Origin: an uncultured Elusimicrobia bacterium
Lineage (GTDB): Bacteria; Elusimicrobiota; Elusimicrobia; UBA1565; UBA9628
Assembly (NCBI GenBank): GCA_903830945.1
Contig: CAIKVT010000026.1
Span: 83,823 to 147,822 of the forward strand
Length of the DNA: 64,000 nt
Direction: 5' to 3'
Below, one piece after another: positions 1,869-29,595 of this stretch. Each line of letters begins with the position of its first letter. The stretch's first letter is position 1. The position numbers were made by a program, and so were the translations under genes. The notes beneath the pieces are model-generated. The model worked only from the letters and a program-made list of their open reading frames with translations, had not been told where the DNA came from and searched no databases.

Positions 1869-2330
1869 ATGCGTATAGCTTTAGGCGCCGACCACGGAGG
1901 ATTCGAACTCAAGGGGCTCCTGCACCGTTTTCTGGAGCGCGAAGGCCACACGATCGTCAACGTCGGGGTGGACGCCCCGGACCCAGTGGACTATCCTGAC
2001 TACACTCGCAAGGTCGCAGACTCCGTCCTGCGCGGCCAAGCCGAGCGCGGCATCATGGTCTGCGGCAGCGGGGTCGGAGCCTGCATGGCCGCCAACAAGA
2101 TCCCCGGCATCCGCGCGGGCCTCTGTCACGACACGTACTCCGCGCACCAAGGCGTGGAACACGACGATATCAACGTCCTATGCCTGGGCGGCCGGATCAT
2201 CGGCTCAGAGCTGGCCTGTGAACTCGTCCGGGCCTTCCTGGCCGCCCGGTTCTCGGACGCCGAACGCCACATCCGCCGGCGCGACAAGGTGACCGCGCTG
2301 GAAAAGGAATCCCGGGAGAAAAGACCATGA
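1869..2330 (+). CDS. rpiB: Ribose-5-phosphate isomerase B
   Basis: 153 residues, full length for the RpiB/LacAB family. It interconverts ribulose-5-phosphate and ribose-5-phosphate in the non-oxidative pentose phosphate pathway. The N-terminal GADHGGFELK, the catalytic-loop region GIMVCGSGVGACMAANK (Cys in the CGSG loop) and the VLCLGGRIIG segment are all family hallmarks. Its 3' end overlaps the start of tal-pgi by 4 bp (ATGA), so both are co-transcribed and probably translationally coupled. Together they cover the non-oxidative pentose pathway and its link to glycolysis. Confidence 0.95.
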   Translation: MRIALGADHGGFELKGLLHRFLEREGHTIVNVGVDAPDPVDYPDYTRKVADSVLRGQAERGIMVCGSGVGACMAANKIPGIRAGLCHDTYSAHQGVEHDDINVLCLGGRIIGSELACELVRAFLAARFSDAERHIRRRDKVTALEKESREKRP

Positions 2331-6632: not shown

Positions 6633-9600
6633 ATGCCACGCTATAGATTCGGATTGATTGCCGGGCTCCTCGCCTTGATGGGCGGCTTGCTGTGCATCGG
6701 ACCGGCCGCCGCCGTCAGCATCACTCCTCGCTACGCGCACACCGCGACCCTCATGCCCGACCGCACCATCCTCATCGTTGGCGGAGTGATCGACGGCGTG
6801 GGCACTATCACGACCAACGTTCAGCTCGAAGCCGCCACCGTGGGATCCAACCTGACGGGGCTCTACGTGGCGCGGGCCTCGCACACCGCGACCCTCCTGC
6901 CCAACGGCGAGGTCCTGGTAGCCGGAGGCAGGTGCGACGGCAGCAGCAACGCCAACTGCGTCCGAGCCGATGGCATCACTGCCTGCGGCGGCAGCGCCAC
7001 CTGCTTCGCGAAAACCGTCGAGGTCTACAATCCGATGCTCAACTGCTGGCACCTCGACAACACCAACACGATGTCCTCGGTGCGCTACGACCACACGGCG
7101 ACTCTGCTTCGGACCGGACAATATGCGGGGGAGGTACTGATCTGCGGCGGCCTCGACGGAAGCGGGGCCTCGCTGACATCCTGCGACATATTCAAACCAA
7201 ATGCCGCGCCTTCGGCCTGCGGCAGCGCTCCGGGAAGCTTCGAGTCGGCGCCTCCAGCCCTCACGACGGGCCGCGCCATACATACCGCGACCATGCTGCG
7301 GGACGGGCGCGTCTTTTTGGCCGGAGGCTACAACAGCAGCGTCTCGCCGGCCTATACCAACACCACCGAGATATACGATCCCGAAAAAAAACGAATGACG
7401 CCCGGCCCCGCCCTCGGCCAGGGCCGGGCCTATCACACGGCCACGATGATGGGAGATGGGAGTGTCTTCATCATCGGTGGATTCGACGGCAACGACGTCA
7501 AGGACAACATCGAAGTCTACGACGAACCCTTTCCCTCAAAGACCGGTGGTTTCCTGAGGGGCACCGAGATCGTCAACCCGAGCGGCTCCGCCATACCCTA
7601 CGCCCCCACGATGCCCGTGCGCAAGATGATGCACGCGATCACGCTCCAGGAAGAGGGCACGGTCCTCTCCTGGGGCGGCCTGGGGAACTTCAGCAATTCC
7701 TACCGCGGCCTCAGCGACCCGATCCAAGCGCCGACAGGCTCGATCACCGACACGGTCTCGCTGGGCAGTTGCGACAGCGCTTCGGTATGCACGATCACCA
7801 GCTCGAACTTCGCCACTCAATCGGCGTACCAGCTTAACGATTACGCCGGCAACCTCCACAACGTGTCGGGCGTCATCGCCAGCGGTTGGTCCTCCTACAC
7901 ATCCAATCCCGACAGCCTCACTCCCGCCCCACCTACCATCAAATTCACCGGCGGCACGATCAACTTCACCAACGGCAATCCAGCAGCTGGAACCGGCATC
8001 CACGCGGATCTGGCAGGCAGCACGGTGCAATGCCTCTCCACGGACAGCTGCGGTTATGTGAACCGTACGCTGGACATCGTCGGCGGAAGCGGCACAGCCT
8101 CTCTCACCGTCCCTGCATCTGTGACGGTCACTGCCGCCATTAACAGCGGCACCGCGCTTCACTTCAACGCGTTCGCAAGCGGCCTTTGCATCACGCAACC
8201 CGCAGAAACCATGAACTCGAGCTCCCTCATTCTCACGCTCCAAGTCGGTGGCCTGTCTCCCAATCTCCAAGGCGCGACCTTGAGCAATGTTTACATGACA
8301 TTGACAGGCGGTTCGATCGTCTGGTACGACACCAAGATGGCGCCGATGTACCAATTCACCATCGGATCCGCCCAGAACTCCGTCGCGCTGACCCCCGGCG
8401 GGACGGTGGGCGCAGACGGGACAGTCTCCTTGACCGGCACCTTCAACGTACCCGCCACCCCCGACGTCAACACCGTGGCCCTCACTTCGGCGACGTGCAC
8501 TCCCCCTATCGATACCGCGGTCAATAACCCGGTCTTTAATAGCGTCACGAACCCGTATCCATGGGGCACCTGGCCCAACAATACCATGACGGGAGCGGCA
8601 GGCAACATCACCCAATACGGCGCCAACAAAATCTATGTAGGGCCGATAAACGGCACTCCCCTGACCTTCACCGCGGATTATGCCGTGTCGGTCGTCAAGA
8701 GCATGGTCTTCAGCGACGTCGAGCAGTTCACGCCGGGCGGGCAGTCGCCCATGACCTGGCGCTACGGGACCCACTCCTTCGGCTGGCAGCGCTATGGGCA
8801 CACCATGATCGGGACCTCGGGAGGGGACGCCCAGTTCGTGGGGGGGAAGTCCTGCGACCCCAATTACTGGGACGGCTCTTGCCCGATGGTGCCCGTGCCG
8901 AACCAGGCGACCCCCGCCGCATCTTCCATCGGATCGATAACCATATTCACGCTGAATCCCTTCGTCCAGGTGAGCAACAACCTGAAATTCAATCACGCCA
9001 ACCACACGACCACGCTCCTGCCCAGCGGCAAGATGCTCGTCGCTGGAGGGACCGACGGGCCCGCGATCAGCTCGACCACCGAGATATTCGACCCCGTGGC
9101 CCAGACCTTCACGCTGACGCCCGGCGCCATGCTCGTGCCGCACGCCAATCACACGGCCACCTTGCTGCCCGACGGCCGCGTGCTCGTGGCCGGCGGCGAC
9201 TCCGTCCTCAACACATCGGCGAGCACCCTCGCCGACGCCGAAATCTTCTATCCGGACACGGGCTATTGGCGATCCTACAGCGCCATGAACTCCTCGCGCA
9301 CCTACCATACGGCCACGCTCCTGCCCGACGGGAACGTGCTGGTCGCGGGAGGCTCCGCCAGCGGAAACTACCTGAACTCCACGGAAATTTACTACTCCAC
9401 CGCCATGGCCTGGCGGTCCGTCGGCAGCATGGCCCACCCCCGCAAGCAGCACACCTCCACTTTGCTGCAGAACGGCAAAGTCCTGGTCTTCGGCGGCCAG
9501 GCATCCGGGCCGTTGAACTTTTCCGAACTTTACGACCCCAACACTGGGGGATGGACCGCGGGCGCGAGCGCGCCAAGCTCCGTCTACCTCCATACGGCCA

Positions 9601-12600
9601 CCCTCCTGCCCAACGGCAAGGTCCTCATCGCAGGCGGGAACAACGGCTCCGGAGAGACCGACGCCTGCTGGTTCTACGACCCGACCTTGAACAGCTGGAG
9701 TGCGGCCCCCTCCCTCCCGGTGGCCCGGCAAAACCACACGGCGACCCTCCTGCCCAACGGGAACGTCGCGGTCATCGGCGGGACCCAGTACGACGGCCAC
9801 GCCGGAAAGCCCATCGCCTCGGTGGAAATCTACGATCCGAACACGGGGATATGGTCCGAGTGGCAGGGGGGCCTCACGATCAACGGCGCCCAATACAGCC
9901 TCCCCGGCGAACGGGCCTACCACACCACGACTTTGGCCAACGACGGCACGCTCTACGCCATCGGCGGCTACGATGGCGTCAACTATCTCAACACCGCGGT
10001 CAGCCATTTCCACATGGCCGGGGCGTACGACGCCAACAGCGTGGGCGGGCTGCCCAGCGCCCGCCTCTCCAGCGTGACCGCGACGGACCTCTCTCCCTTC
10101 AACCGCGGCGAAACGCTGACCGTCAAAGGACAAAATTTCCTTAACGTGACCGAGGCCTCGGGCGGCGGGGCGGGCAGCGCCAACTCCGATCAGCGCCATC
10201 CCATATGGATACTGCAGTCCATGGACGGCTCCGGGGGAGGCTCCTCGCAGGGAAACAGCGGCTTCATAATCGACCTGACTTCGAACATCTACCAGAACAG
10301 CGCCGTGAACAGTTGGGCCAAGATCGACTCTTCCATAACCATCACGCTTCCCACCCTTCCCAGCGCCTTGCCCTACGGCTGGTACAGCCTGCGCGTCGGC
10401 GCCAACGACCAATTATCCCCAGCCTACGCGGTCCAAGCCGGCCCACACCTGCCCCGCGCGCCAGTGACCTTCACCGCTTACCCCATCAACGTGAGCACGA
10501 ACTCCATGACCTTCACATGGGCTGCTCCCGCGGGCCTGGCCCCGGGCAGTGACTTCGACGGCTACAACGTCTACATAGCGACCTCCCATGTCTGGACATC
10601 GACCGTGGACTACAACTCGACCTCCTTCACCCTCAATCACCTGACCCCAAGCTCCACCCAACAGATCATGGTGATGCCCTACAATATCTCCGGCGACTAC
10701 CCCGTCCTGACCTTCTCCGCGACGGCCTACACCCTGCCCGTGGCGCCCGCGAACGTGGCCATCGCCACCGGGCCCGGCAACACCTTCTTCGTGCAATGGA
10801 GCACTGCGGATCCCAACACGGGATCGCCCTACGACGGCCAAGGCACGCTCTACGAGCTCAGCGAATCCTTAGACGGATTTGCGACCGTCCTGACGACCTT
10901 CAGCCCGACTACGGCCAATTTCGCCCCGAACCAGCCTCTCTCACTTATTCCCTACAAAACATATTCCTTCCGCGTGCGGGCCTGCAACCTCCACGGCAAC
11001 CCCTACGGCGAATGTTCGGACTTCAGCCCCTACGTCTCCACACAGACCGCAGCCATCGTGTACAACGTTTCCGGCATAGGGTACGCCACGGACACCGTAA
11101 AATGGACCTGGGACACGATCTCGGGGGCGACATACACCATAGTCAATGCCACCGCCACCGACAATATCATCGCCTCGGGCCTGACGACCAACCTCTATTA
11201 CCAGGCCTTGCCGCAGAACGCCCGCAGCGTCATCCAGGTCCAAGCGATGCTCGGAGGTTCCGTAGGCCCTCTGTCGAATTCGGCCACGGCCTACAGCCTG
11301 GCGGCCGCGCCCGTCTTCACCGCGCTGAGCTGCCCCAACACGGGCGCCGGCATCACGACCGGCAGCGTCGTGACGTCCTGGAACACTCACCCGGGCGGGC
11401 CCGGCCCGGAGAGCAACCCCGTCACCTACCAAGTCGAATACGCCACGGGCAACTGGAATCGCGCCACAGGCAACTGGAACCCCGGCATCGTCCCCTCATC
11501 CGCGACCGTCGTCGATGCCGACAAGTCCATCCCCACCGAGAGCGCGGTGCTCGGAAACCTCAACCCCGCCGTGCCGGTCTATATCCGGGCTCGCGCGCTC
11601 AACACCTTCGGCCAGTTCCTAGATCCCCAGATCAACCTCAACTACAAATACACGGATGAATGGGTGGACTTGGTATCGTCCTACGACTTCACCGATAAGA
11701 CCGGATTCACCTCCACCCTGCCGCAGGCGCCGACCAACTTCATTTCCACCCAGCCATGGACTCCGACAAGCGTGACCCTGTCGTGGAACAACGCGCGTCC
11801 CGACCCGACGCGCGCCGGCTACCCCCAAAGCAGCTTCCAGGTCATGCAGACCACCTGCACCGGGCTTATAGGCGGCGTGCTCACACCCTTATTCGACACA
11901 TCGACCGGACCGGCCTGCGGCGTGCCTCACCCAGGCCTCGACTTCATGGACCTGCCGTTCCCATCGCACACCGCGCTGGTCACCAACCTCAGCACCTGGG
12001 TCACCTATTATTTCATGCTCAACTACAGGAATCCGCCGCATTGGGAAGGCACCCAGCCTAATTCCGTGGACACGTCCACCGTCAACGGTATCTGGCCGAT
12101 CTATTACGCTTCCCAGCCCGGCGTCGTCCCAGGCTCGCTGGCCATCAACGTCAGCGCCAAATACGGCGGCTCTGTCAGCGGGGCCATCGTGGGCCTCCCA
12201 ACCCCGCCGCAAGAACAGCACCACGTGTCGTTCAGCGCGCCGGGGGGATCATTTCCCTCCGACACCGTCGTGACCATCTCGACCTTCGACGCCTCACTCA
12301 GCCAATGCCCGGGACACACGCTCTGCGGCGGCGACCCCAACCTGACTTTCGAGATCACGGCGAACCCGCCGCTGCAGCCCACGCTGCCGCTGTATTTCAC
12401 CGTGACTTACAACGACGGAGAACCGCCCAATGTCGCCGGCATGACGGACCCCAAGCAGGCCGTCATGCTGCGCTTCGACCCCACCACCTGCCAGTGCGTG
12501 CCCGTGCGCAACCCGGCGTCGCCCGACAGCAAGACGATCACCGGAGAGCTCAACCATCTCTCGATCTTCCAGGTCGGGACCGTCCAGCCCTCCACGTCTC

Positions 12601-12863
12601 CCGAAGGGATGCGCATCTACCCGAACCCCTACTACACCGCCCGCGACGGCTGGCTGACCATCGACGGGCTCCCCGCCGCATCCCGGGTGCGGATATTCAC
12701 GCTGCGCGGCGAGCTGGTCCTAAACAGCAGCGCTGACAGCCACGGCATATTCACCTGGCAAGGCGCCAACCGCGGCGGCCGCGCCGTGGCCAGCGGCGTC
12801 TACCTAGTGGTCGTCGAGGGCAACGGGATCAAGGCGATCCGAAAACTGGCAGTGATCCGATGA
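6633..12863 (+). CDS. Giant secreted surface protein: two Kelch propellers, TIG, Fn3, ZU5-like and FlgD-like C-terminal domains
   Basis: 2,076 residues. A signal peptide (RFGLIAGLLALMGGLLCIG, cleaved after AAA near residue 29) is followed by six Kelch motifs of the form HTATLLPDGRVLVAGG (residues about 34-345), a beta-rich insert (350-715), and eight more Kelch motifs (about 720-1130). A TIG/IPT-type domain (about 1145-1270), several fibronectin-III-like domains (1277-1815) and a ZU5-like domain (about 1833-1985) come next. The last 85 residues, from IYPNPYY to the terminal KAIRKLAVIR, resemble the FlgD Ig-like fold and type IX secretion sorting domains. It probably acts at or outside the outer membrane in adhesion or glycan binding. 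It overlaps the PorV-like gene by 4 bp. Confidence 0.85.
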   Translation: MPRYRFGLIAGLLALMGGLLCIGPAAAVSITPRYAHTATLMPDRTILIVGGVIDGVGTITTNVQLEAATVGSNLTGLYVARASHTATLLPNGEVLVAGGRCDGSSNANCVRADGITACGGSATCFAKTVEVYNPMLNCWHLDNTNTMSSVRYDHTATLLRTGQYAGEVLICGGLDGSGASLTSCDIFKPNAAPSACGSAPGSFESAPPALTTGRAIHTATMLRDGRVFLAGGYNSSVSPAYTNTTEIYDPEKKRMTPGPALGQGRAYHTATMMGDGSVFIIGGFDGNDVKDNIEVYDEPFPSKTGGFLRGTEIVNPSGSAIPYAPTMPVRKMMHAITLQEEGTVLSWGGLGNFSNSYRGLSDPIQAPTGSITDTVSLGSCDSASVCTITSSNFATQSAYQLNDYAGNLHNVSGVIASGWSSYTSNPDSLTPAPPTIKFTGGTINFTNGNPAAGTGIHADLAGSTVQCLSTDSCGYVNRTLDIVGGSGTASLTVPASVTVTAAINSGTALHFNAFASGLCITQPAETMNSSSLILTLQVGGLSPNLQGATLSNVYMTLTGGSIVWYDTKMAPMYQFTIGSAQNSVALTPGGTVGADGTVSLTGTFNVPATPDVNTVALTSATCTPPIDTAVNNPVFNSVTNPYPWGTWPNNTMTGAAGNITQYGANKIYVGPINGTPLTFTADYAVSVVKSMVFSDVEQFTPGGQSPMTWRYGTHSFGWQRYGHTMIGTSGGDAQFVGGKSCDPNYWDGSCPMVPVPNQATPAASSIGSITIFTLNPFVQVSNNLKFNHANHTTTLLPSGKMLVAGGTDGPAISSTTEIFDPVAQTFTLTPGAMLVPHANHTATLLPDGRVLVAGGDSVLNTSASTLADAEIFYPDTGYWRSYSAMNSSRTYHTATLLPDGNVLVAGGSASGNYLNSTEIYYSTAMAWRSVGSMAHPRKQHTSTLLQNGKVLVFGGQASGPLNFSELYDPNTGGWTAGASAPSSVYLHTATLLPNGKVLIAGGNNGSGETDACWFYDPTLNSWSAAPSLPVARQNHTATLLPNGNVAVIGGTQYDGHAGKPIASVEIYDPNTGIWSEWQGGLTINGAQYSLPGERAYHTTTLANDGTLYAIGGYDGVNYLNTAVSHFHMAGAYDANSVGGLPSARLSSVTATDLSPFNRGETLTVKGQNFLNVTEASGGGAGSANSDQRHPIWILQSMDGSGGGSSQGNSGFIIDLTSNIYQNSAVNSWAKIDSSITITLPTLPSALPYGWYSLRVGANDQLSPAYAVQAGPHLPRAPVTFTAYPINVSTNSMTFTWAAPAGLAPGSDFDGYNVYIATSHVWTSTVDYNSTSFTLNHLTPSSTQQIMVMPYNISGDYPVLTFSATAYTLPVAPANVAIATGPGNTFFVQWSTADPNTGSPYDGQGTLYELSESLDGFATVLTTFSPTTANFAPNQPLSLIPYKTYSFRVRACNLHGNPYGECSDFSPYVSTQTAAIVYNVSGIGYATDTVKWTWDTISGATYTIVNATATDNIIASGLTTNLYYQALPQNARSVIQVQAMLGGSVGPLSNSATAYSLAAAPVFTALSCPNTGAGITTGSVVTSWNTHPGGPGPESNPVTYQVEYATGNWNRATGNWNPGIVPSSATVVDADKSIPTESAVLGNLNPAVPVYIRARALNTFGQFLDPQINLNYKYTDEWVDLVSSYDFTDKTGFTSTLPQAPTNFISTQPWTPTSVTLSWNNARPDPTRAGYPQSSFQVMQTTCTGLIGGVLTPLFDTSTGPACGVPHPGLDFMDLPFPSHTALVTNLSTWVTYYFMLNYRNPPHWEGTQPNSVDTSTVNGIWPIYYASQPGVVPGSLAINVSAKYGGSVSGAIVGLPTPPQEQHHVSFSAPGGSFPSDTVVTISTFDASLSQCPGHTLCGGDPNLTFEITANPPLQPTLPLYFTVTYNDGEPPNVAGMTDPKQAVMLRFDPTTCQCVPVRNPASPDSKTITGELNHLSIFQVGTVQPSTSPEGMRIYPNPYYTARDGWLTIDGLPAASRVRIFTLRGELVLNSSADSHGIFTWQGANRGGRAVASGVYLVVVEGNGIKAIRKLAVIR

Positions 12864-16843: not shown

Positions 16844-16849
16844 TATAAT
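16844..16849 (+). promoter_or_regulatory. Perfect -10 hexamer TATAAT, leaderless type
   Basis: TATAAT at 16844-16849, then AATTTC and the ATG at 16856. There is no purine-rich ribosome-binding site in the six intervening bases. The -35 region is weak. Confidence 0.6.
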
Positions 16850-16855
16850 AATTTC

Positions 16856-18955
16856 ATGAGCACCAAACCCCAATTGACCACAAGACTGCTCTCATCTATC
16901 CTCTGCGGCGCCCTGCTCCTGACCTGCCCCGGCCCCAACGCCTACGCGGCCGCCGGCCAGATCGTCTCAGCCCAGGTCAACGTCCCCGTCGGCATCCCGA
17001 TTGGCGCCGGCCTCGCCAGAACCTCCTTCTCCGGCACGCTCGACGCGCGGCAGACAAGATTGACCGCCAACCTCTCCGGAGTCCTCACCCCGACGCCGGC
17101 AGCCCCCACAATATTCGCCCAGGACATGACCGCGCCGCTAGCCCCGATGACACTGGCCGCTCCGGCGCAGGCCGCAGCGGCGGTCGACGCTCAAAAAAAC
17201 ACTCCCACCGAAATCCAAGACGACGGGGCCGTCGCGCAAGCCGAGACCATCACGTCCCAGCCCGGGCGCCTTGCGGCCCCGGCCTCCCGAGTCCGCACCG
17301 GCATCATCGGCACACTCCAGTCCCTCTTCTCTGCGCGCCAAGACGCCGGAGCACTCCCTGGTGCCGTAGACGCCTCGTCTCTCAGATCCACGCGGAATCC
17401 CGACAAGCCCGCCGCGACCCTGACGCCCAACGTCCCGACCCAAACCGCCGCTGAAAAGGATGGACAGCCCCCGGCTCCCTCGACGCAGGCCGCCGCTGAT
17501 GAAAAGGTCGGCGGCAAACCCTGGTTCGGCCTCGGCAAGTCCGCGGTCATGTTCATCGGCGCACTCCTCGTTGGCCAGATCGGTGTAGAGGCGCTGGGCG
17601 CCTCGATGCCGGCCCTGGTGCAGAAGACCTTCGGCGATTTCACCGTGGTCGCCCAGCTCGGAATATTCGCCTCCATTGCAGGAATCATCGGCCGAACGCT
17701 GGGGCCGATGGCCGTGACCAAGTTCGGCCTCAAAAAAACCTATATTGCGGCGACCATCACGCGCCTGGTCTCCATCACAGCGCTGTGCGCCCTGCTGGCG
17801 ACAGGGCACATGACCCTGCCCCTCATGATGGTGTTCTACTCCATCAACGGCCTGCTCCAGGGCGTGGCCCTGACCGCCGAGACCAGCATCCCGCCGGCTT
17901 TGGTCGGCCAGAACCCGGCCGCGCTCGAGCGATTCTGGACCTGGGAACAGACGCTTCTGGAAACCATCGGCGTGACCGGCCCCATCGCGACCGGCGCCGT
18001 GGTCGCGAGCTTCGGCTTCCTGCCAGCCCTTATCGCCTTCCCGGTCTCCTTCGCGGTCGCCATCGCCATCCTCGCCCTGACTCTCAAGATCCCGCAGAAG
18101 GTCGAGGCCATGCGCCTGGCGGACCTTCAGAAGAAGACGGTGCAAGGCAAGAAGATGACGCTTGGCTCGGTCTTCAAGGAGTTCTTCCGCAAAATCGGGC
18201 ATGGCGCCCAAATCGTATGGAAAGACCCTGTCCTGCGCACCTCGTTCCTGGGCTTCACGGTCTACATGATGATCAACCCTTTCCTTTACAGCATGCTTGC
18301 CCCGGCCTACGGCATGCGCCTGGTGGGGATCGCGCATCCGGAGCTCTCCGCCGGCATCTACGGCACCATGACCGGCCTCTACAGCCTGGGCGGCCTTCTG
18401 GGAGGCCTGCTCATGATGCTGGAACAGAAGAAAATCAAGGCGCTCAAAGATGGCAAAAACGGCAAGACCCCCATCACGGACGCCCAAGAGAACGAGATCC
18501 TGCGCAAATCCATGCTGCGCTGGATGCTCTGGGGCACTGCGGGCCTGGCGGCCATCGCGACTTTGGCCGTCCCTCTGCCCGCCTTAGGCACCCTCGTGGC
18601 CCTGCCCTCGCTGCTCTCCTGGGCCGGAAGCCTGACCCTGCCGGCCCTGGCCCTCATCCCCTTCGGCATCGCCCAGGTCGTCAGCTATCTAAAGCTACGC
18701 AGCTTCTTCCAATCCAAGGTCCCGGAGCAGGAGATGGCCGACGCCATGGGCTTCTTTGGATCGGCTTCCTTAGCCGCGAGCACGGCCGGGCTGCTGGCAC
18801 TCAAATACCTCTTCCAGGGCATGGCGGGATTTACGCCCTTCACTTACATCGCCCTGGCCATGATCCCGCTGGCCGCCTACTATCTCTACCTGTGCAAGCA
18901 TCTCGGGAAGGTCTCGGCGCCGCAGCCGAGTGAGCCTCCCATAAGTAGGCCCTAA
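16856..18955 (+). CDS. Major facilitator superfamily transporter with a secreted-type N-terminal extension
   Basis: 699 residues, about 250 longer than a usual MFS protein. The N-terminus is a signal-peptide-like stretch (TRLLSSILCGALLLTCPG, then NAYAAA), followed by about 190 Ala/Pro/Thr-rich residues with no membrane segments. The transporter begins near residue 222 (WFGLGKSAVMFIGALLVG) and has some 12 helices, with GIIGRTLGPMAVTKFGLKKTY as the conserved loop between helices 2 and 3 and a long charged central loop (about 420-450). Substrate cannot be told. The extension would lie in the periplasm, and its function is unknown. A possible terminator follows the gene. Confidence 0.8.
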   Translation: MSTKPQLTTRLLSSILCGALLLTCPGPNAYAAAGQIVSAQVNVPVGIPIGAGLARTSFSGTLDARQTRLTANLSGVLTPTPAAPTIFAQDMTAPLAPMTLAAPAQAAAAVDAQKNTPTEIQDDGAVAQAETITSQPGRLAAPASRVRTGIIGTLQSLFSARQDAGALPGAVDASSLRSTRNPDKPAATLTPNVPTQTAAEKDGQPPAPSTQAAADEKVGGKPWFGLGKSAVMFIGALLVGQIGVEALGASMPALVQKTFGDFTVVAQLGIFASIAGIIGRTLGPMAVTKFGLKKTYIAATITRLVSITALCALLATGHMTLPLMMVFYSINGLLQGVALTAETSIPPALVGQNPAALERFWTWEQTLLETIGVTGPIATGAVVASFGFLPALIAFPVSFAVAIAILALTLKIPQKVEAMRLADLQKKTVQGKKMTLGSVFKEFFRKIGHGAQIVWKDPVLRTSFLGFTVYMMINPFLYSMLAPAYGMRLVGIAHPELSAGIYGTMTGLYSLGGLLGGLLMMLEQKKIKALKDGKNGKTPITDAQENEILRKSMLRWMLWGTAGLAAIATLAVPLPALGTLVALPSLLSWAGSLTLPALALIPFGIAQVVSYLKLRSFFQSKVPEQEMADAMGFFGSASLAASTAGLLALKYLFQGMAGFTPFTYIALAMIPLAAYYLYLCKHLGKVSAPQPSEPPISRP

Positions 18956-20452: not shown

Positions 20453-20460
20453 TCATGACG

Positions 20461-23400
20461 ATGCTTGGTGACGCACGAGGGATTATAGCGAGCGCCACCC
20501 TCAGCAACCGCAGCCTCTCCCTCCAGCCGTCAGCGACGGACGTATTTTTTTATCGCGCGCGCGTTCTAAGGCTCGTCGGAGTCCTGGCCCTGGCCGGCAG
20601 CGCCCTCTTGCTGGCCGCGCCCGAGCTGCAGGCCGACTGCTCCGCCATAGGGTCTAACCCCGTCACCATCAACGTCAAGAAAGGCGGCTCCGGCTGCACC
20701 ACCATCACCGCCGCGGTCGCCCTCATCACGAGCCCTCTCACCGACGACTACCAAATACTCATCGACAGTCAAACCTACAGCGAGCAGGTGACCATCCAGG
20801 GCAAGGACACCGCGACCCACAACAAGACCATCACCATCAAGTCCGACCCCATCATGGTCGCCACCGCGACCGTGGTCAATCCGCCGGCATCTTCCATTGC
20901 GGCTTTTCGCGTATTGAACGCCAGCGTGACCATCGCTGGGATCGACATCGTCAGCACCAACAGCGTATCGTACGGCGTGCTGGTCTCCTCGGCCTATGCG
21001 ACCATTTCCAACGTCAACGTCCAGGACGCGGCGGGCCATATCTCGGTCGCGGGCATCGCCGTCTCTTCAAACTGGGCGTCGATCTCGTATTCCAGCGTCA
21101 CGGCCAACAACGCCTACGGCCTCTACCTCACCGGCGCCAACTACAACTCAGTCAGCCACAGCACCATGACCAGCCTCAATGCCGGCCTCTACCTCACCGG
21201 CGCCTCGTCGAACACCGTCAGCGAGAGCTATATGAACGGATCCGGAGGCAGCGGATACGGCGCTTATCTGCGCTCCAACTCAAACGCCAACTCCATAAGC
21301 CAGAGCACCATGACCGGCTTGTACTCCGGTCTCGACCTCGTCGGAGCCTCGTCCAACTCAGTCACCGAGAGCTATATCTACAGCGCCAACCAGTACGGCC
21401 TGCGGCTCGAGTCCGGATCCAACTCCAACTCCATAAGCCGGAGCACCATGACCGGCTACTCCTACGGCCTCTACCTTCCCCAATCCTCGTCCAACTCAGT
21501 CACCGGGAGCTATATGTCCAGCGCCAACGGAAACGGCGCCACTCTATCCGGCTCCAACTCAAACACCATCAGCCAGAACACCATGACCGGCCACAACGCC
21601 GGCCTCTACCTGACCAACAGCTCATCCTCCAACTTAGTCACTGGGAACTACATGTACGGAGCCAACCAGTACGGCGCCAACATATCCTACTCCAACTACA
21701 ACTCGATAAACCAGAGCACCATGACCAGCGTATTATACTACGGACTCCAGCTCATCGGAGCCTCGTCCAACTCAATCACCGGGAGCTATCTCTACGGCAC
21801 CAACGAAGGCGCGGATCTAGTATCGGGCTCCAACTCCAACTCGATAAGCCAGAGCACCATGACCGGAAACTTCAACGGCCTCTTCCTCGACAGCTCCTCG
21901 TCCAACTCAGTCACCGGGAGCTCTATGTACGGATCGCACGGCGCGCATCTGGAATTCGGCTGCAACTCCAATAAAATAAATCAGAGCACCATGACCGGCA
22001 GAGCCGTCGGCCTCTACCTCTTCCAATCCTCGTCCAACACGGCCGCCGGCTGCTACATCCAGGGCTCGACTGCGGCCTTCATCTTCGGCTCTACAAGCAC
22101 GATCATCGCTTACAGCACGCTCGTGAGCACTTGGACGGGCGGCATCGGCCTGCAGATGAGCAACGGCAGCGTCAACCTGACCCTATCATCCTCCACCGTG
22201 CTGGGCGGCGTAGGCGGCGCGGCCGTATTCCTAGACCGGGGCAACACCGGCGTCATCACCCTCTCCTCCGACACCATCACCAGCACCGCGACCGTGGGCT
22301 CGCCCTACTACGGACTGCTCATCGCCACGCAGGGCGCCAGCGGCGTTTTCACGAGACTCTCGATTACCAGCATGACTTTCATGGACCCATTGCCCGCGGG
22401 CACCACGGCCATCGACTTCCTGGGCGGGACCTTCCTTTCCACCTTCACTTCAGTCGGATTCTACAGCTCCAACATCGGCGCCAACATCAACGCCAGCCCC
22501 CTGGCGGTCAACAGCACGATCTGGATGCTCCTCTCGGCCGGGGCGAAAGCCGGGCCCTCTGACGCGGACGACCCCAAACACATCGTGAATTGGCCCTTCT
22601 TCAATCCTCCCCCTGGCTGCGGCGCCGGCTACAACGTGGGTCAGAACGGGTTTTGGGACTTCAGCTCCATCAAAATCGCGGTCAACGCCCTCAGCGGAAC
22701 CACACTATCGACCACCACCTGCATCGTGGTGCGCGACACGCAGACCTATTCTGAACAGGTGACGGTCCAAAGGATCACCAACAACGGCTACCGACTCCAG
22801 ATCATCTCCGACCCGAGCTTCATCAGCTCCGCGCCCGCGATCAATCCGCCCACCAAGTCCACGGCCGCCTTCCAGATCGCCAACGCCAGCGTCACCATCA
22901 CCGGGATCAACATCATCAGCACCAACACCGTGCAATGGGGCGTTCTGGCCTCCTCGCCGCTCATCACCATCACCGACGTCAACGTCCAGGACGCGGCGGG
23001 CAAGATCTGGGGTGCGGGCATGTCCTTGGGAAGCTACAACACGGTGAACTACTCGAGCGTGACCGTAGCCGTCTCCTCCTACGCCTTCTACTTGAATGGC
23101 TCCAGCATGACAGTGGTGTCCTACAGCTCGGCCCAGGCCAACAGCTCTTGCTCCTCCTGCGCCGCCCTATACCTGGCCAACGCCTCATCCAACACCTTTA
23201 CGGTGTTTTTGGCCAGCAACCCGGCCGGAAGCGGCATAACGCTCAGCACCGGCTCCAATTCAAACACAATCAGCCAAAGCGTCATAACCGGAAAAAACTT
23301 CGGCCTCTACCTCCAGAGAAACTCGTCCAACTCCGCGGCAGGCTGCTACATCCAGGGTTCCACCGCGGTCTTCATCTCCGGCTCCACAGGCACGGTCATC

Positions 23401-26400
23401 GCTTACAGCACGCTGATAAGCCCCTGGACGGGCGGCATCGGCTTGCAGCTGAGCGGCGGCAGCGTCAACCTGACCCTGTCGTCTTCCACCATCCAGGGCG
23501 GCGTCGGCGGCGAAGCCGTGTTCCTCGACCAAGGCAATACCGGCGCCATCAACCTCTCATCCGACACCATCACCAGCACCGCGACCGTGGGCTCGCCCTA
23601 CTACGGACTGCTCATCGCCACGCAGGGCGCGGGGGGAGTGTTCACTGGCCTGTCCATCGCCAGCATGACCTTCACGGACCCCTTGCCTGCGGGCACCACG
23701 GCCATCGACTTCCTAGGCGGCACCTTCCGCTCCACCTTCACCGCGGTCGCCTTCAACAGCACGAACATCGGTGCCAACATCAACACCCGCCCCCTAGCGG
23801 TCAACAGCACGACCTGGATGATCTTCTCCGCCGGGCCCAGGACAGGCCGCGCCTACTCGGACGACCCCAATCATGTCGCGCATTGGACCTTCATCAATCC
23901 GCTCCCGGGCTGCGACGCCGGCTGCAACGTGGGCCAAGACGGCAGCTGGGACTACACATCCATACAGCCGGCTGTCAGCGCCCTCAGCGGCACGACTCTG
24001 AGCGCCACCACCTGTATCGTGGTGCGCGACACGCAGACCTATTGCGAAGCTGTGACGGTCCAGAACATCGTGAACAACGGCTATCGATTCATCATCATGT
24101 CCGACCCGAGCTTCATCAGCTCCGCGCCCGCGGTCAATCCGCCGACAAAATCCACGGCCGCCTTCCAAGTCATGAACGCCAGCGTGACCATCACCGGGAT
24201 CAACATCATCAGCACCAACACCATGCAGTGGGGCGTGCTGGCCTCCTCACCGCTCGTCACCATCACCGACGTCAACGTCCAGGACGCGGCGGGCAAGATC
24301 TGGGGCGCCGGCATGTCCTTAGGCAGCTACGACACGGTGAACTACTCGAGCGTGACCGTGGCCAACGCCTACGGTTTCTACTTGAACGGCTCCAGCATGA
24401 CGGCTGTGTCCTACAGCTCGGCCCAGGCCGACAATTCGAACTATGGAGCCCTCTATCTGATCGGCGCATCCTCCAACACGATCGCCAACAGCTTCATGGC
24501 GAATTCAAGCGCGGATGGCGCGACTCTCGACACCGGCTCCAACTCCAACACAATTAGCCGAAGCACCATGACCAGCTTATACTATGCCCTCCACCTCAGC
24601 GGCGCCTCGTCCAACTCGATCATCGCAAGCTGCATGTACGGGACCAATGGGACCGGCGCGATCCTCGAGCCCGGCTCCAACTCCAACATAATAAGCCAAA
24701 GCACCGTGACCGGAAAAAACTTCGGCCTCTACCTCACCGGCGCCTCGTCCAACTCGGTCAGCGGAAGCTATATGTACGGATCCGGCGGCTACGGCGCGGA
24801 ACTCTTGAACGGCTCCAACTCCAACTCGATAAGCCTGAGCGCCATGGCCGGCTTATACGGCCTCAAGCTCCAGGGCACCTCGGCCAACACGGCCGCCGGC
24901 TGCTACGTGCAAGGCTCAACGGCGGTCTGGATTTCCAACTCCATTGACACGATCATCGCCTACAGCACGTTGGTCAGCACCTGGACGGGCGGCATCGGCC
25001 TGCAAATGAGCCAGGGCAGCGTCAACCTGACCATCTCCTCCTCCACCGTCAAAGGCGGCATCAGCGGCGCGGCCGTATTCCTTGACCGAGGGAACTCAGG
25101 CTCGATTACCCTTTCTTCCAACACCATCACCAGCACCGCCACCGCAGGCTCACCTTACTACGGCCTGCTCATCGCCGCGCAGGGCGCGGGGGGAGTGTTC
25201 ACCGGCCTGTCCATCACCAGCATGACCTTCGCGGACCCCTTGCCCGCTGGCACCACGGCCATCGACTTCCTGGGCGGGACCTTTCTCTCCACCTTCGCCG
25301 CGGTCGCTTTCAACAGCACGAACATCGGCACCAACATCAACGTCAGCCCCCTGACGCTCAACAGCACGGTCTGGATGCTCCTCTCCGCCGGGCCCAGGAC
25401 CGGCCGCGCCTACGCGGATGACCCCGATCATGTCGCGCATTGGACCCTCATCGATCCGCCCCTGGGCTGCGGCGCCGGCTACAACGTTGCCCAAGACGGC
25501 AGTTGGGACTACGCGTCCATACAGCAGGCTGTCAACGCCATCAACGGCATGACCCTGGGCGCCAACACCTGCGTAGTGGTGCGCGACACGCAGACCTATT
25601 GCGAAGCTGTCACGGTGCAGAACATCAACAATAACGGCTACCAGCTCCAAATCATGTCCGACCCGAGCTTCGTGAGCTCCGCGCCTGTAGTCAACCCCCC
25701 CGCGGGCTCCACGGCCGCCTTCCAGATCATGAATGCCGGCGTGACCCTCATCAACCTCACCGTGATCAGCACCAACAGCGTGCAATACGGCGTACTGGCC
25801 TCCTCGCCGCTCATCACCATCACCAGCATCAACGTCCAAGACGCAGCGGGCAAGATCTGGGGCGCGGGCATGTCCTTGGGCAGTTACGACACGGTGAGCT
25901 ACTCGAGCGTGACCGTGGCCAACGCCTACGGCTTCTACTTGAGCGGCGCCAGCATGACGGCTGTGTCCTACAGCTCGGCCCAGGCCGACAACTTGAACTA
26001 TGGCGCCCTCTATCTGACCGGCGCCTCCTCCAACACGATTGCCAGCAGCTTCCTGTCGAATTCGAGCGGAGACGGCGCGACTCTCGATACCGGCTCCAAC
26101 TCCAACACCATCAGCCAAAGCGCCGTGACCGGGAAAAACTTCGGCCTTTACCTCCAGAGAAACTCGTCGAACTCCGCGGCGGGCTGCTACATCCAGGGTT
26201 CAACCGCGGTGTTCATCTCCGGCTCCACAGGCACGGTCATCGCTTACAGCACGCTGATGAGCCCCTGGCCAGGCGGCATCGGCTTGCAGCTGAGCGGCGG
26301 CAGCGTCAACCTGACCCTGTCGTCTTCCACCGTCCAGGGCGGCATCGGCGGCGAAGCCATGTTCCTCGACCGAGGCAACACTGGCTCGATAGTCCTCTGC

Positions 26401-29400
26401 GCCAACACCATCACCAGCACGGCCACTGTAGGCTTGCCCTACTACGGCCTGCTCATCGCCCCGCAGGGCGCAGGCGGCGCATTCACCAGCCTCTCGATAG
26501 CCAGCATGACCTTCACGGACCCCTTGCCCGCCGGCACCACGGCCATCGACTTCCTGGGCGGGACATTCCTATCCACCTTCACCTCCCTGGGCTTCAACAG
26601 CGCGAACCTCGGGACGAACATCAACGCCGGGGCCCTCAACACCGATGCCAGCATCTACTTGGTCGCCCCGACCGGGATCAGGACCGGCCGCCGCTACTCG
26701 GACGACCCCTTCTTCTACGTGCACTGGCCCGTGATACTTCCGCCGGGCTGCGGCGCGGGATTTAATGTGGGCCAAAACGGAGACTGGGAGCACACCTCTA
26801 TCAATGCCGCGGTCAAAGCGCTCAACGGAACAACCCTCTCCACGGCCACCTGCATCGTGGTGAGGGATACCCAGACCTACTCCGAGCAGGTCACGGTGCA
26901 GGGCATCACGAACAACGGCTACCGGCTCCAAATCATGGCCGACCCCAGCTTCATCAGCTCCGCGCCCGCGGTCAACCCTCCTGCGAATATCGCCACGGCC
27001 GCCTTTCAAATCCTCAATGCCAGCGTGACCATCGCCAATATCGCCGTCATAACCACCAATACGGTCAGCTACGGCATCGTCGCCTCCTCGGTCGATGTGG
27101 TTTTATCGAGCGTGAGCGTCCAGGACTCCAACGGGAACATCACGGTCGCGGGCATCGCCATCTCAGCAAGCCGAGCCTTGATCTCATATTCCAGCGTCAC
27201 GGTCCAAAGCGCCTACGGCCTCTATCTCGACAAAGCCTCGTCCAACACGGCGGCGGGGTGTTACATCCAGGGCTCCACCGCCGTCTTAGTCTCCGGCTCC
27301 ACAGGCACGGTCATCACTTACAGCACGCTGGTGAGTACCTGGGCCAGAGGCATCGGCCTGCAAATGGGCGGCGGCAGCGTGAACCTGGCGTTATCATCCT
27401 CCAGCATCAAGGGAGGCATCGGCGGCGCGGCCGTAGTCCTCGACCAGGGCAATACAGGCTCGATCGACCTCTCCTCCGACACCATCACCGGGCCCGTGGG
27501 CTCGCCCTACTATGGCCTGCTCATCGCCACGCAGGGAGCCTCCGGCGCAGCCTTCCAGGGGCTCTCCATCACCAGCATGACGTTTTTTGACATGGCGTCG
27601 GGAGCCATCGGGATTTCTTTCGGAGGAGGCAGGCTCCTGGCCACATTCAGCTATGTGGATTTCGCGGCCCCGGGAATCATCTACAACGTCGATGCATCCG
27701 CCCTGGACCCGTCCGCTAATATCACGATGTTTGAATCCAGCGGCCCCCGCAAAGGCGCCGTTCATGCCAATGACCCCAGCAACGTCATCTCCTGGGTCTA
27801 CAGCTACGAACGTCCGCCGAATTCTCCCGTTGCTTCCGATATCGAGATATCCAGCTTCATTGTTTCCTACGGCCTGGTGGGGGCGGATGGATACGAGCTC
27901 AAGGCTTCCACGGCTTTAAATCTCAGCGGGACCGTCTTCGTCTCATCGACCAGCAACCCGGCCATGGATCATCTGGCGCTGCAGGACCTGAGAGCCAACA
28001 CCACTTATTTTGTGAAAGCAGGCGCCCTGTGGAGCGGCACCACTATTTACGCCAGCGCATTTCCGGTCGTGACCCTGGCTCTGCCGCCGACAGGCTCAGT
28101 ACTCACGGGCATGGCCCGCGGCTCGGCCATGCTGTCCTGGTCCGCCAACGGCAATCCAGACGGCACGATCTACGACGTCCTCTCTTGGACGACTGGAGGG
28201 TCCACGATCACCTTCTCCACGCAATCGGTCAACGCGACGATCAGCAATCTGCCTTCCGGGACCACGGTCTATTGCGCGGTGCAGGCGCTCAACAATGCCT
28301 CGCCGCCGGTCCCGACAGCCCTGGATATCACCCTTTCGACCTATATCCCGCCCCCGCCGCTGGCGCCCACGTTGTCGGCTGTCGCACTCGGCGTTTCTTC
28401 CATCACCTGGACCTGGACGCTCAGCACGGGGGCCGTCGAATATCAGCTATTGACCAGCACCGGAGGCGCGGTGTCCGGCGTATTGTCGCCGACCTCATCA
28501 TCGTTCACGGAAACGGGTTTATCGACCAATACCGCGATGACCCGGACCGTTCAAGCCTTCAACATCACCGGATCGTCGGATTCGGCGCTCATCAGTCGGT
28601 TTACGCTCGCCAGTCCCCCGGATAGTTTTGCTCTGCTGGGCTCAAACGGGAACAGCGCGTCGGTCTCTTGGTCCGGCTTCAACCCGACCGGCACGACGTA
28701 TGCTCTGCAGTGGTGGACGGCCGGAGGATCCACGGTCACGATATCCACGCAGTCGACAGGATACCTGTCCTACGGGGCCCTTTCCAATCTGACCGGCAGC
28801 ACCACGGTCTACCTGACGATCAAGGCGCTCAACGGCGACGGCATCTCGACCGCTTATTATGATGTCGTGCTGTCCACCTTCATCCTCGGAGCCATAGCCG
28901 TCGCCATACCGCCCGGCGGAGGGTCCGCCTTTTTTCAGACCTCTTACGGCTATGTGAACGTCATCGCACCGCCGCAAGCCTTCCCGTCCGGGGCCACACT
29001 CACCATCCAATATCCGACCTCGATCGTTCCCGCAGCGACCGGGAACCTACAGGAGCTGACGACCCCCTTCGACTTCATGATCACCGCCGCGGACACCCTC
29101 GGAAATCCACTCCAGCCGGCCCTGCCCTTGACGATCATCTCCGGATATAGCGGAGCGACGCTGGGCGTCAACGAGAGCAATCTGGTCATCGCCCGTTTCG
29201 ACACGATCCATGACGCTTGGGTGCCGCTGCTCACCGCGCGCGACAGTGCGGGCAAGACACTGACCGCCCAAACCGACCATTTATCTCTCTTCCAGATCCT
29301 AGGAACGGGGGCCACGGCCGGTGATCTCTCGCAGGTCACGGTCGGACCCATCCCTCTGCGGCCGTCGCTGACCCCCGGCGGGGTCATGACGTTCCGCTAC

Positions 29401-29595
29401 CTACCCGCCGGTGCACGCCTAAGGATCCATACGGTGCTGGGGACGCTTGTCGCCGACTTCAACGCCGACGCTTCCGGACTGGCCGCCTGGGACGGACGGA
29501 ACATGGCCGGCCGCCCGGCGGCCAGCGGCGTCTACTTCGTATTCATGACAAACGGCGGCCAGAACAAAACGATCCGGGTGGTCATCCAGAGATGA
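20461..29595 (+). CDS. Giant secreted right-handed beta-helix protein with Fn3, ZU5-like and FlgD-like C-terminal domains
   Basis: About 3,044 residues. A late hydrophobic signal (LRLVGVLALAGSALLLAA) ends near residue 60. Five parallel beta-helix modules follow (residues about 60-718, 719-1149, 1150-1668, 1669-2095 and 2096-2440); modules 2-5 open with a GCGAGYNVGQNG-like stretch and CIVVRDTQTY, and each is built of Ser/Asn-rich coils (SNSISQSTMTG, SSNSVTGSYM) as in NosD/pectate-lyase folds. Fn3-like domains (about 2450-2815), a ZU5-like domain and an FlgD-like domain (about 2960-3044; WDGRNMAGRPAASGVYF) end the protein, in the same order as the Kelch giant. Probably a surface adhesin or glycan-binding protein. 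It overlaps a PorV-like gene by 4 bp. Confidence 0.85.
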   Translation: MLGDARGIIASATLSNRSLSLQPSATDVFFYRARVLRLVGVLALAGSALLLAAPELQADCSAIGSNPVTINVKKGGSGCTTITAAVALITSPLTDDYQILIDSQTYSEQVTIQGKDTATHNKTITIKSDPIMVATATVVNPPASSIAAFRVLNASVTIAGIDIVSTNSVSYGVLVSSAYATISNVNVQDAAGHISVAGIAVSSNWASISYSSVTANNAYGLYLTGANYNSVSHSTMTSLNAGLYLTGASSNTVSESYMNGSGGSGYGAYLRSNSNANSISQSTMTGLYSGLDLVGASSNSVTESYIYSANQYGLRLESGSNSNSISRSTMTGYSYGLYLPQSSSNSVTGSYMSSANGNGATLSGSNSNTISQNTMTGHNAGLYLTNSSSSNLVTGNYMYGANQYGANISYSNYNSINQSTMTSVLYYGLQLIGASSNSITGSYLYGTNEGADLVSGSNSNSISQSTMTGNFNGLFLDSSSSNSVTGSSMYGSHGAHLEFGCNSNKINQSTMTGRAVGLYLFQSSSNTAAGCYIQGSTAAFIFGSTSTIIAYSTLVSTWTGGIGLQMSNGSVNLTLSSSTVLGGVGGAAVFLDRGNTGVITLSSDTITSTATVGSPYYGLLIATQGASGVFTRLSITSMTFMDPLPAGTTAIDFLGGTFLSTFTSVGFYSSNIGANINASPLAVNSTIWMLLSAGAKAGPSDADDPKHIVNWPFFNPPPGCGAGYNVGQNGFWDFSSIKIAVNALSGTTLSTTTCIVVRDTQTYSEQVTVQRITNNGYRLQIISDPSFISSAPAINPPTKSTAAFQIANASVTITGINIISTNTVQWGVLASSPLITITDVNVQDAAGKIWGAGMSLGSYNTVNYSSVTVAVSSYAFYLNGSSMTVVSYSSAQANSSCSSCAALYLANASSNTFTVFLASNPAGSGITLSTGSNSNTISQSVITGKNFGLYLQRNSSNSAAGCYIQGSTAVFISGSTGTVIAYSTLISPWTGGIGLQLSGGSVNLTLSSSTIQGGVGGEAVFLDQGNTGAINLSSDTITSTATVGSPYYGLLIATQGAGGVFTGLSIASMTFTDPLPAGTTAIDFLGGTFRSTFTAVAFNSTNIGANINTRPLAVNSTTWMIFSAGPRTGRAYSDDPNHVAHWTFINPLPGCDAGCNVGQDGSWDYTSIQPAVSALSGTTLSATTCIVVRDTQTYCEAVTVQNIVNNGYRFIIMSDPSFISSAPAVNPPTKSTAAFQVMNASVTITGINIISTNTMQWGVLASSPLVTITDVNVQDAAGKIWGAGMSLGSYDTVNYSSVTVANAYGFYLNGSSMTAVSYSSAQADNSNYGALYLIGASSNTIANSFMANSSADGATLDTGSNSNTISRSTMTSLYYALHLSGASSNSIIASCMYGTNGTGAILEPGSNSNIISQSTVTGKNFGLYLTGASSNSVSGSYMYGSGGYGAELLNGSNSNSISLSAMAGLYGLKLQGTSANTAAGCYVQGSTAVWISNSIDTIIAYSTLVSTWTGGIGLQMSQGSVNLTISSSTVKGGISGAAVFLDRGNSGSITLSSNTITSTATAGSPYYGLLIAAQGAGGVFTGLSITSMTFADPLPAGTTAIDFLGGTFLSTFAAVAFNSTNIGTNINVSPLTLNSTVWMLLSAGPRTGRAYADDPDHVAHWTLIDPPLGCGAGYNVAQDGSWDYASIQQAVNAINGMTLGANTCVVVRDTQTYCEAVTVQNINNNGYQLQIMSDPSFVSSAPVVNPPAGSTAAFQIMNAGVTLINLTVISTNSVQYGVLASSPLITITSINVQDAAGKIWGAGMSLGSYDTVSYSSVTVANAYGFYLSGASMTAVSYSSAQADNLNYGALYLTGASSNTIASSFLSNSSGDGATLDTGSNSNTISQSAVTGKNFGLYLQRNSSNSAAGCYIQGSTAVFISGSTGTVIAYSTLMSPWPGGIGLQLSGGSVNLTLSSSTVQGGIGGEAMFLDRGNTGSIVLCANTITSTATVGLPYYGLLIAPQGAGGAFTSLSIASMTFTDPLPAGTTAIDFLGGTFLSTFTSLGFNSANLGTNINAGALNTDASIYLVAPTGIRTGRRYSDDPFFYVHWPVILPPGCGAGFNVGQNGDWEHTSINAAVKALNGTTLSTATCIVVRDTQTYSEQVTVQGITNNGYRLQIMADPSFISSAPAVNPPANIATAAFQILNASVTIANIAVITTNTVSYGIVASSVDVVLSSVSVQDSNGNITVAGIAISASRALISYSSVTVQSAYGLYLDKASSNTAAGCYIQGSTAVLVSGSTGTVITYSTLVSTWARGIGLQMGGGSVNLALSSSSIKGGIGGAAVVLDQGNTGSIDLSSDTITGPVGSPYYGLLIATQGASGAAFQGLSITSMTFFDMASGAIGISFGGGRLLATFSYVDFAAPGIIYNVDASALDPSANITMFESSGPRKGAVHANDPSNVISWVYSYERPPNSPVASDIEISSFIVSYGLVGADGYELKASTALNLSGTVFVSSTSNPAMDHLALQDLRANTTYFVKAGALWSGTTIYASAFPVVTLALPPTGSVLTGMARGSAMLSWSANGNPDGTIYDVLSWTTGGSTITFSTQSVNATISNLPSGTTVYCAVQALNNASPPVPTALDITLSTYIPPPPLAPTLSAVALGVSSITWTWTLSTGAVEYQLLTSTGGAVSGVLSPTSSSFTETGLSTNTAMTRTVQAFNITGSSDSALISRFTLASPPDSFALLGSNGNSASVSWSGFNPTGTTYALQWWTAGGSTVTISTQSTGYLSYGALSNLTGSTTVYLTIKALNGDGISTAYYDVVLSTFILGAIAVAIPPGGGSAFFQTSYGYVNVIAPPQAFPSGATLTIQYPTSIVPAATGNLQELTTPFDFMITAADTLGNPLQPALPLTIISGYSGATLGVNESNLVIARFDTIHDAWVPLLTARDSAGKTLTAQTDHLSLFQILGTGATAGDLSQVTVGPIPLRPSLTPGGVMTFRYLPAGARLRIHTVLGTLVADFNADASGLAAWDGRNMAGRPAASGVYFVFMTNGGQNKTIRVVIQR
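22615..27780 (+). repeat. Four long in-frame repeats inside the beta-helix giant
   Basis: Near-identical blocks begin at about 22615, 23908, 25465 and 26746 (units about 1.29, 1.56, 1.28 and 1.0 kb). Stretches such as the coding for SSDTITSTATVGSPYYGLLI and DPLPAGTTAIDFLGGTF are almost identical in DNA, so these arose by recent duplication or are kept alike by gene conversion. The units differ mainly by how many short coil repeats they hold. Confidence 0.85.

Follow-up and report, generated by a model that had tools for sequence, protein, structure and literature searches.

A predicted N-terminal leader shared by an MFS transporter and unrelated proteins of Elusimicrobiota, with a probable role in sorting

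Introduction

Signal peptides with a lineage-specific motif mark special export routes. The YSIRK/GXXS signal peptides of staphylococcal and streptococcal surface proteins are, in the accounts consulted, a motif-bearing signal of this type, carried by a subset of exported proteins. A second layout is that of the chromatophore transit peptide (crTP) of Paulinella, which is about 200 residues long and is found on many different proteins; its first part is of secretory type and its second part contains conserved elements (PMC12176269). Within the open-licence PMC literature, nothing was recognised as the leader described below.

The window analysed here is a stretch of 64,000 nucleotides from an uncultured Elusimicrobia bacterium. 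One of its genes encodes an MFS transporter with an N-terminal extension in front of the membrane core. This extension is probably a copy of a so far undescribed N-terminal leader of Elusimicrobiota that is lineage-specific, of Sec type and active in sorting. Sequence comparison shows that the leader is conserved coding sequence, that it is confined to part of the phylum and that unrelated proteins have it in common.

The window gene and its product

The open reading frame at 16856-18955 is intact, begins with ATG and encodes 699 residues. Its only Pfam match is MFS_1 (PF07690) at aa 237-644 (E 2.3e-12), where the score of 47 bits lies above the curated cut-off of 33.4 and places the protein in the MFS. 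No Pfam match of any kind was found within aa 1-221, and the NCBIfam search of the frame gave no entry near its cut-off. The MFS core extends over aa 222-699 and the stop codon (17519..18955, + strand), with 12 helices, which are also seen by hydropathy, and an N-inside charge pattern by K+R counts. An AlphaFold2 model built from an input of 9 sequences has a helical core and a mean pLDDT of only 52. With this low-confidence model, Foldseek returned MFS structures (G6PT, MdfA, GLUT1 and PepTSt; best E 1.9e-7).

The extension is made up of several parts, all on the + strand. A TATAAT sequence (16844..16849), resembling the -10 box of a leaderless-type start and matched by boxes in homologues, ends 6 nt 5′ of the start codon. 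The first part of the protein, aa 1-33 (16856..16954), is a signal-peptide-like segment with a PG-x3-[YWF]-x-A motif (CPGPNAYAAA), identified with profile A4 and from alignments. The linker that follows, aa 34-221, consists of 19.7% Ala, 10.1% Pro and 11.2% Thr and contains no Cys. Its Ala/Pro/Thr-rich portion, aa 34-125 (16955..17230), is the fastest-evolving part, with a pN/pS of 0.44-0.72. A conserved basic element that is predicted to be helical occupies aa 126-165 (17231..17350; QAExI...PGRLAAPAxRVRTGIIGTLxSLFSxR) and is common to the SPase II-like, C1 and ABC leaders; short helices are predicted here at low confidence (140-148 and 150-159). A Pro-rich segment recognised in the alignment, aa 166-221 (17351..17518), leads up to helix 1. 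Residues 16-223, with both the Ala/Pro/Thr-rich and the Pro-rich segments, fall below pLDDT 50, and the linker is predicted to be disordered. The earlier note had described a signal-peptide-like start and a long Ala/Pro/Thr-rich linker before 12 helices, and both are real and are kept in homologues.

Other frames of the window were also recorded on the + strand. Two very long repetitive ORFs, 20455-29595 (3046 aa) and 6633-12863 (2076 aa), resemble each other by eye at their C-terminal ends (ASGVYxV...), as would fit a common sorting or structural domain at the C-terminus. A 964-aa ORF at 2327-5221 looks by eye like a transaldolase fused to a glucose-6-phosphate isomerase.

Conservation of the extension and position of the start codon

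The search for MFS proteins with the same extension, and for their phyla, was carried out as the earlier note had proposed. A single scan of genome contigs, which reaches close relatives only, gave nine named MFS loci, all titled Elusimicrobia. Eight of these retain their 5′ end and all eight have an extension; the ninth (L096) is cut. A homologue of the MFS core at E 1e-10 is present in 39 of the 56 genomes of the order. Thirty MFS loci were fetched, from which three at contig ends (L147, L162 and L164) and one with an unreadable frame (L168) were left out. A hydrophobic segment preceded by K/R lies 159-339 residues before the core in 26/26 readable loci, the window included; the script takes the best segment by design, and the printed segments were checked by eye. 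The PG is present in 16 of the 26 and absent in 10, where the hydrophobic segment is kept. By simple patterns, the traits of a Sec signal peptide of SPase I type are found throughout: a basic N-region and a hydrophobic core in 26/26, and an AxA-type end in 25/26, the last by a loose pattern that is readily matched in Ala-rich chains.

A TATAAT or TATACT box 6-9 nt 5′ of the start is found in six of the eight named homologues (L094, L095, L097, L098, L101 and L102), and no such box occurs at this distance in the other two (L099 and L100). In a set of 70 leader genes that includes the homologues and whose starts were chosen by script, 27 have TATHHT no more than 25 nt from the start, compared with 3.8 in shuffles; of the 30 occurrences, 15 have their end 6 or 7 nt ahead of the start. 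Such a box is found within 30 nt of 4 of 36 other starts in the window, and the remaining 32 have none in this range. TATAAT also ends 2 nt before the window start at 20455 and 8 nt before that at 43175.

In three ortholog pairs, the pN/pS of the extension (aa 1-221) is 0.45-0.59 and that of the core 0.20-0.22. By this measure, with a ratio below 1, the extension evolves as coding sequence, under looser constraint than the core. An annotated start that is wrong, or an extension that is untranslated, with the MFS protein beginning near residue 215, is scarcely credible. The core alone does match the whole MFS domain, as such a start would predict; the window leader is akin to the leaders of other proteins, which speaks against it. 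A true start near residue 215, the point on which the earlier note had staked the extension, is contradicted by the TATAAT at the ATG, by the pN/pS ratio below 1 and by the presence of the extension in all 26 readable MFS loci, and a mis-called start was rejected on the upstream boxes and these same grounds.

Spread of the signal segment across Elusimicrobiota

With the extension as query, three more ORFs were found in the same genome: one SPase II-like and one C1-type peptidase, both by Pfam, and one that is subtilase-like by eye. The same query matches 14 of 57 relatives at E 0.01. At E 0.01, a 15-row profile of the signal segment (A1) matched 12 times in the genome of the window; it also matched 9 of 149 genomes in the phylum draw. 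The searches with a 30-row profile (A4) covered genomes within the phylum Elusimicrobiota. Within the order it finds 1-19 matches per genome in 55 of 56 genomes at E 0.01, and at E 0.001 it matches 62 of 196 genomes of the class. These 62 belong to families f1-f5, f10 and f11, plus a single f12 genome (E 5.3e-4); none belongs to families f6-f9, and four f1 genomes have no A4 match at E 1e-3. Both profiles include rows from several of the searched genomes, so that some matches are built in, and the weight rests on the many further matches and on the silence of the sister families.

The profile is specific within the window. After removal of the window row and three related rows, A4 recovers the window gene at E 1.9e-13 as the sole match among 639 window frames. 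The motif is missing from twelve other secreted-looking starts in the window, whose best E is 0.11. With A4, 61 of the 69 candidate proteins reach E 1e-3 or better, many of them being A4 rows themselves; the non-matches include L142, for which the script picked a wrong start. Two further proteins, ClpB-like L132 and LonB-like L128, scored 6.2e-4 and 0.005 with the earlier profile A1 and were not counted as leader proteins at A4 values of 2.9 and 0.19. Weak A4 scores mark L082 (0.06) and L127 (0.022) as doubtful leader proteins, and L083 is a false match inside a protein.

The leader does not have the conserved Cys after a lipobox of a lipoprotein signal peptide. A Cys stands before the PG in the MFS group of the window (LTC or LAC), but across the A4 alignment this position is mainly occupied by S, T or A. 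The YSIRK/GXXS motif is absent from the A1 and A4 consensus.

Passenger proteins and the shared linker

A Pfam search of 39 passengers, with L130 omitted for its size, showed the proteins behind the leader to be diverse. Scores over the Pfam cut-off were obtained for MFS (L076, L078 and L120), ABC exporter (L140) and PHO4/PiT (L092) domains. The peptidases over the cut-off are SPase II (L002), C1 (L004), M48 (L074 and L129), S8 (L081 and L123), M50 (L123 and L125) and Rce1-type (L106 and L121). The remaining matches over the cut-off are alpha-amylase (L110), animal haem peroxidase (L133), HAD (L134), a UbiB/ABC1-type kinase (L077) and a PRK/uridine-kinase-like protein (L122). Thirteen passengers have no Pfam family at E 0.01 (L075, L080, L088, L103, L105, L107, L108, L109, L112, L114, L118, L119 and L139). 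The earlier note had regarded the extension as unusual for MFS proteins. The extension is not particular to one transporter and is common to unrelated proteins of the lineage.

Several passengers show individual features. Leader-bearing ABC exporters are found at L140 (G002:C6, 365-2767) and L011/L024 (G036:C126). A Walker A pattern is matched by L122 and not by L140. By eye the G036 relative resembles L140, and the ATPase may therefore be inactive. L133 (G020:C24, 405-3857) joins the leader to an animal haem peroxidase domain and has a caleosin match under the cut-off. L078 (1231-4488) is a fused passenger in which a part that is HAD-like by eye precedes the MFS domain, and L123 (513-3752) contains M50 and S8 domains in a single leader-bearing protein. 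M48-like and S8-like leader genes are paired in three genomes at spacings of about 13 kb (G000:C29, 235-249 kb), 26 kb (G002:C40, 100-126 kb) and 3 kb (G014:C31, 111-114 kb), where L074 alone is confirmed by Pfam and the others were assigned by eye. The genome of the window also contains an ordinary SPase II, as a 180-aa open frame.

The likeness between leaders extends beyond the signal peptide in part of this set. Without its signal peptide, the window linker matches the leader of an ABC exporter (2.9e-27), SPase II-like leaders (4.9e-15 and 6.9e-11) and C1 peptidase leaders (2.9e-10 and 1.5e-5). None of 2400 shuffled linkers fell below 1e-3, and chance low-complexity likeness is thereby ruled out for the leaders of the MFS, ABC exporter, SPase II-like and C1 proteins. 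Once the signal peptide is omitted, the window linker does not match seven further leaders from the same genome (L074-L080), so that outside the close group the likeness shown is that of the signal segment.

Topology of the leader and the core

The K+R counts in 24 aligned MFS cores, whose 12 helices were placed by the authors from hydropathy and the model, are 751 in cytoplasmic-type loops and 45 in periplasmic-type loops. The N-inside pattern is found in all 24 cores, and an inverted MFS core receives no support from the charges. A mechanical hydropathy count over all passengers missed helices and gave a mixed orientation, and therefore only the aligned MFS set was used.

If the signal peptide works and no further span follows, the residues leading up to helix 1 would lie outside. 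The linker of the window protein has one other hydrophobic segment, aa 36-54, with a hydropathy of 1.44, but this segment scores poorly for membrane insertion. The charge pattern indicates that the residues just before helix 1 are in the cytoplasm, and the two topology rules thus contradict each other. As read from the sequences, an exported N-terminus clashes with the N-inside core, and the contradiction is systematic in the clade. The earlier note had put the linker in the periplasm, which follows from the signal peptide taken alone; for the residues before helix 1 the charge pattern of the 24 cores indicates the opposite side. The balance tips slightly towards a linker that is translocated at least in part. 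For the MFS set, the clash with the positive-inside rule poses a sharp question on how membrane proteins acquire their topology.

In a rival reading the leader would stay in the cytoplasm, its hydrophobic start acting as a membrane-surface or hairpin anchor with the PG as a turn, and the linker and MFS N-terminus inside. This is a possible though doubtful explanation. It fits the charges of the core, the basic residues directly before helix 1 and passengers of a cytosolic kind such as L077 and L122. The start, however, is built like a Sec signal peptide (K/R, a hydrophobic run and, by the loose pattern, the AxA-type end) and is kept where the PG is lost, and the peptidase and glycosidase passengers suit export.

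Alternatively, the product may be a precursor that is cut, perhaps near the basic element, the signal peptide and linker then being separated from the MFS protein and having separate fates. A cut before insertion would remove the topology conflict, and the aligned homologues have kept the basic element at a distance of some 60 residues from helix 1. This course of events is judged unlikely.

A probable sorting leader

The reading of the extension as a sorting leader draws on the copies in the same genome, the linker matches, the spread and window specificity of A4, the pN/pS, the segments in 26/26 loci and named relatives that are exclusively Elusimicrobia. Against it stand the N-inside core in 24/24, the seven leaders without a linker match, the 10 of 26 loci without PG, the four matchless f1 genomes and the passengers of cytosolic kind (the UbiB-type and PRK/uridine-kinase-like proteins). 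The leader would begin with a signal peptide of Sec type, in many cases carrying PG-x3-[YWF]-x-A, followed by a flexible Ala/Pro-rich chain. Next would come the short basic helical element, which is clear in the group of MFS, ABC, SPase II-like and C1 leaders, and then the working protein. As a presequence, the leader would direct a selected set of proteins, comprising transporters, peptidases and other enzymes, to the Sec translocon and to a shared site in the envelope, and the signal peptide is probably removed. To function, the MFS core should nevertheless be N-inside; candidate ways of reconciling this with the leader are a late re-orientation, a cut that removes the leader or a lack of export.

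A broader proposal is that this branch of Elusimicrobiota may have its own sorting route. In each cell, a bipartite leader of about 200 residues would direct roughly ten to twenty different proteins, namely transporters, peptidases, kinases and hydrolases, to a single destination, either a specialised membrane domain or an internal compartment. The route would include a means of installing an N-inside core led by a signal peptide. This proposal is rather improbable. The leader itself occurs on unrelated proteins, often polytopic ones, in almost all of the genomes examined from this order of uncultured bacteria.

Comparison with known systems

The window protein is like other members of the MFS (PF07690) in its core domain, its 12 helices and its N-inside charge pattern, and unlike them in having about 220 residues of leader, headed by a signal peptide, ahead of the core. 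The likeness to the YSIRK/GXXS signal peptides lies in the use for a subset of exports and is not claimed as kinship. In contrast to those signals, as far as the accounts consulted describe them, the Elusimicrobia leader does not have that motif, belongs to another phylum, has a shared linker after the signal and is found on many polytopic passengers. The layout of the leader resembles that of the crTP, a works-like comparison of layout in which no kinship is claimed; the crTP differs in being encoded by a eukaryote and in targeting an organelle (PMC12176269).
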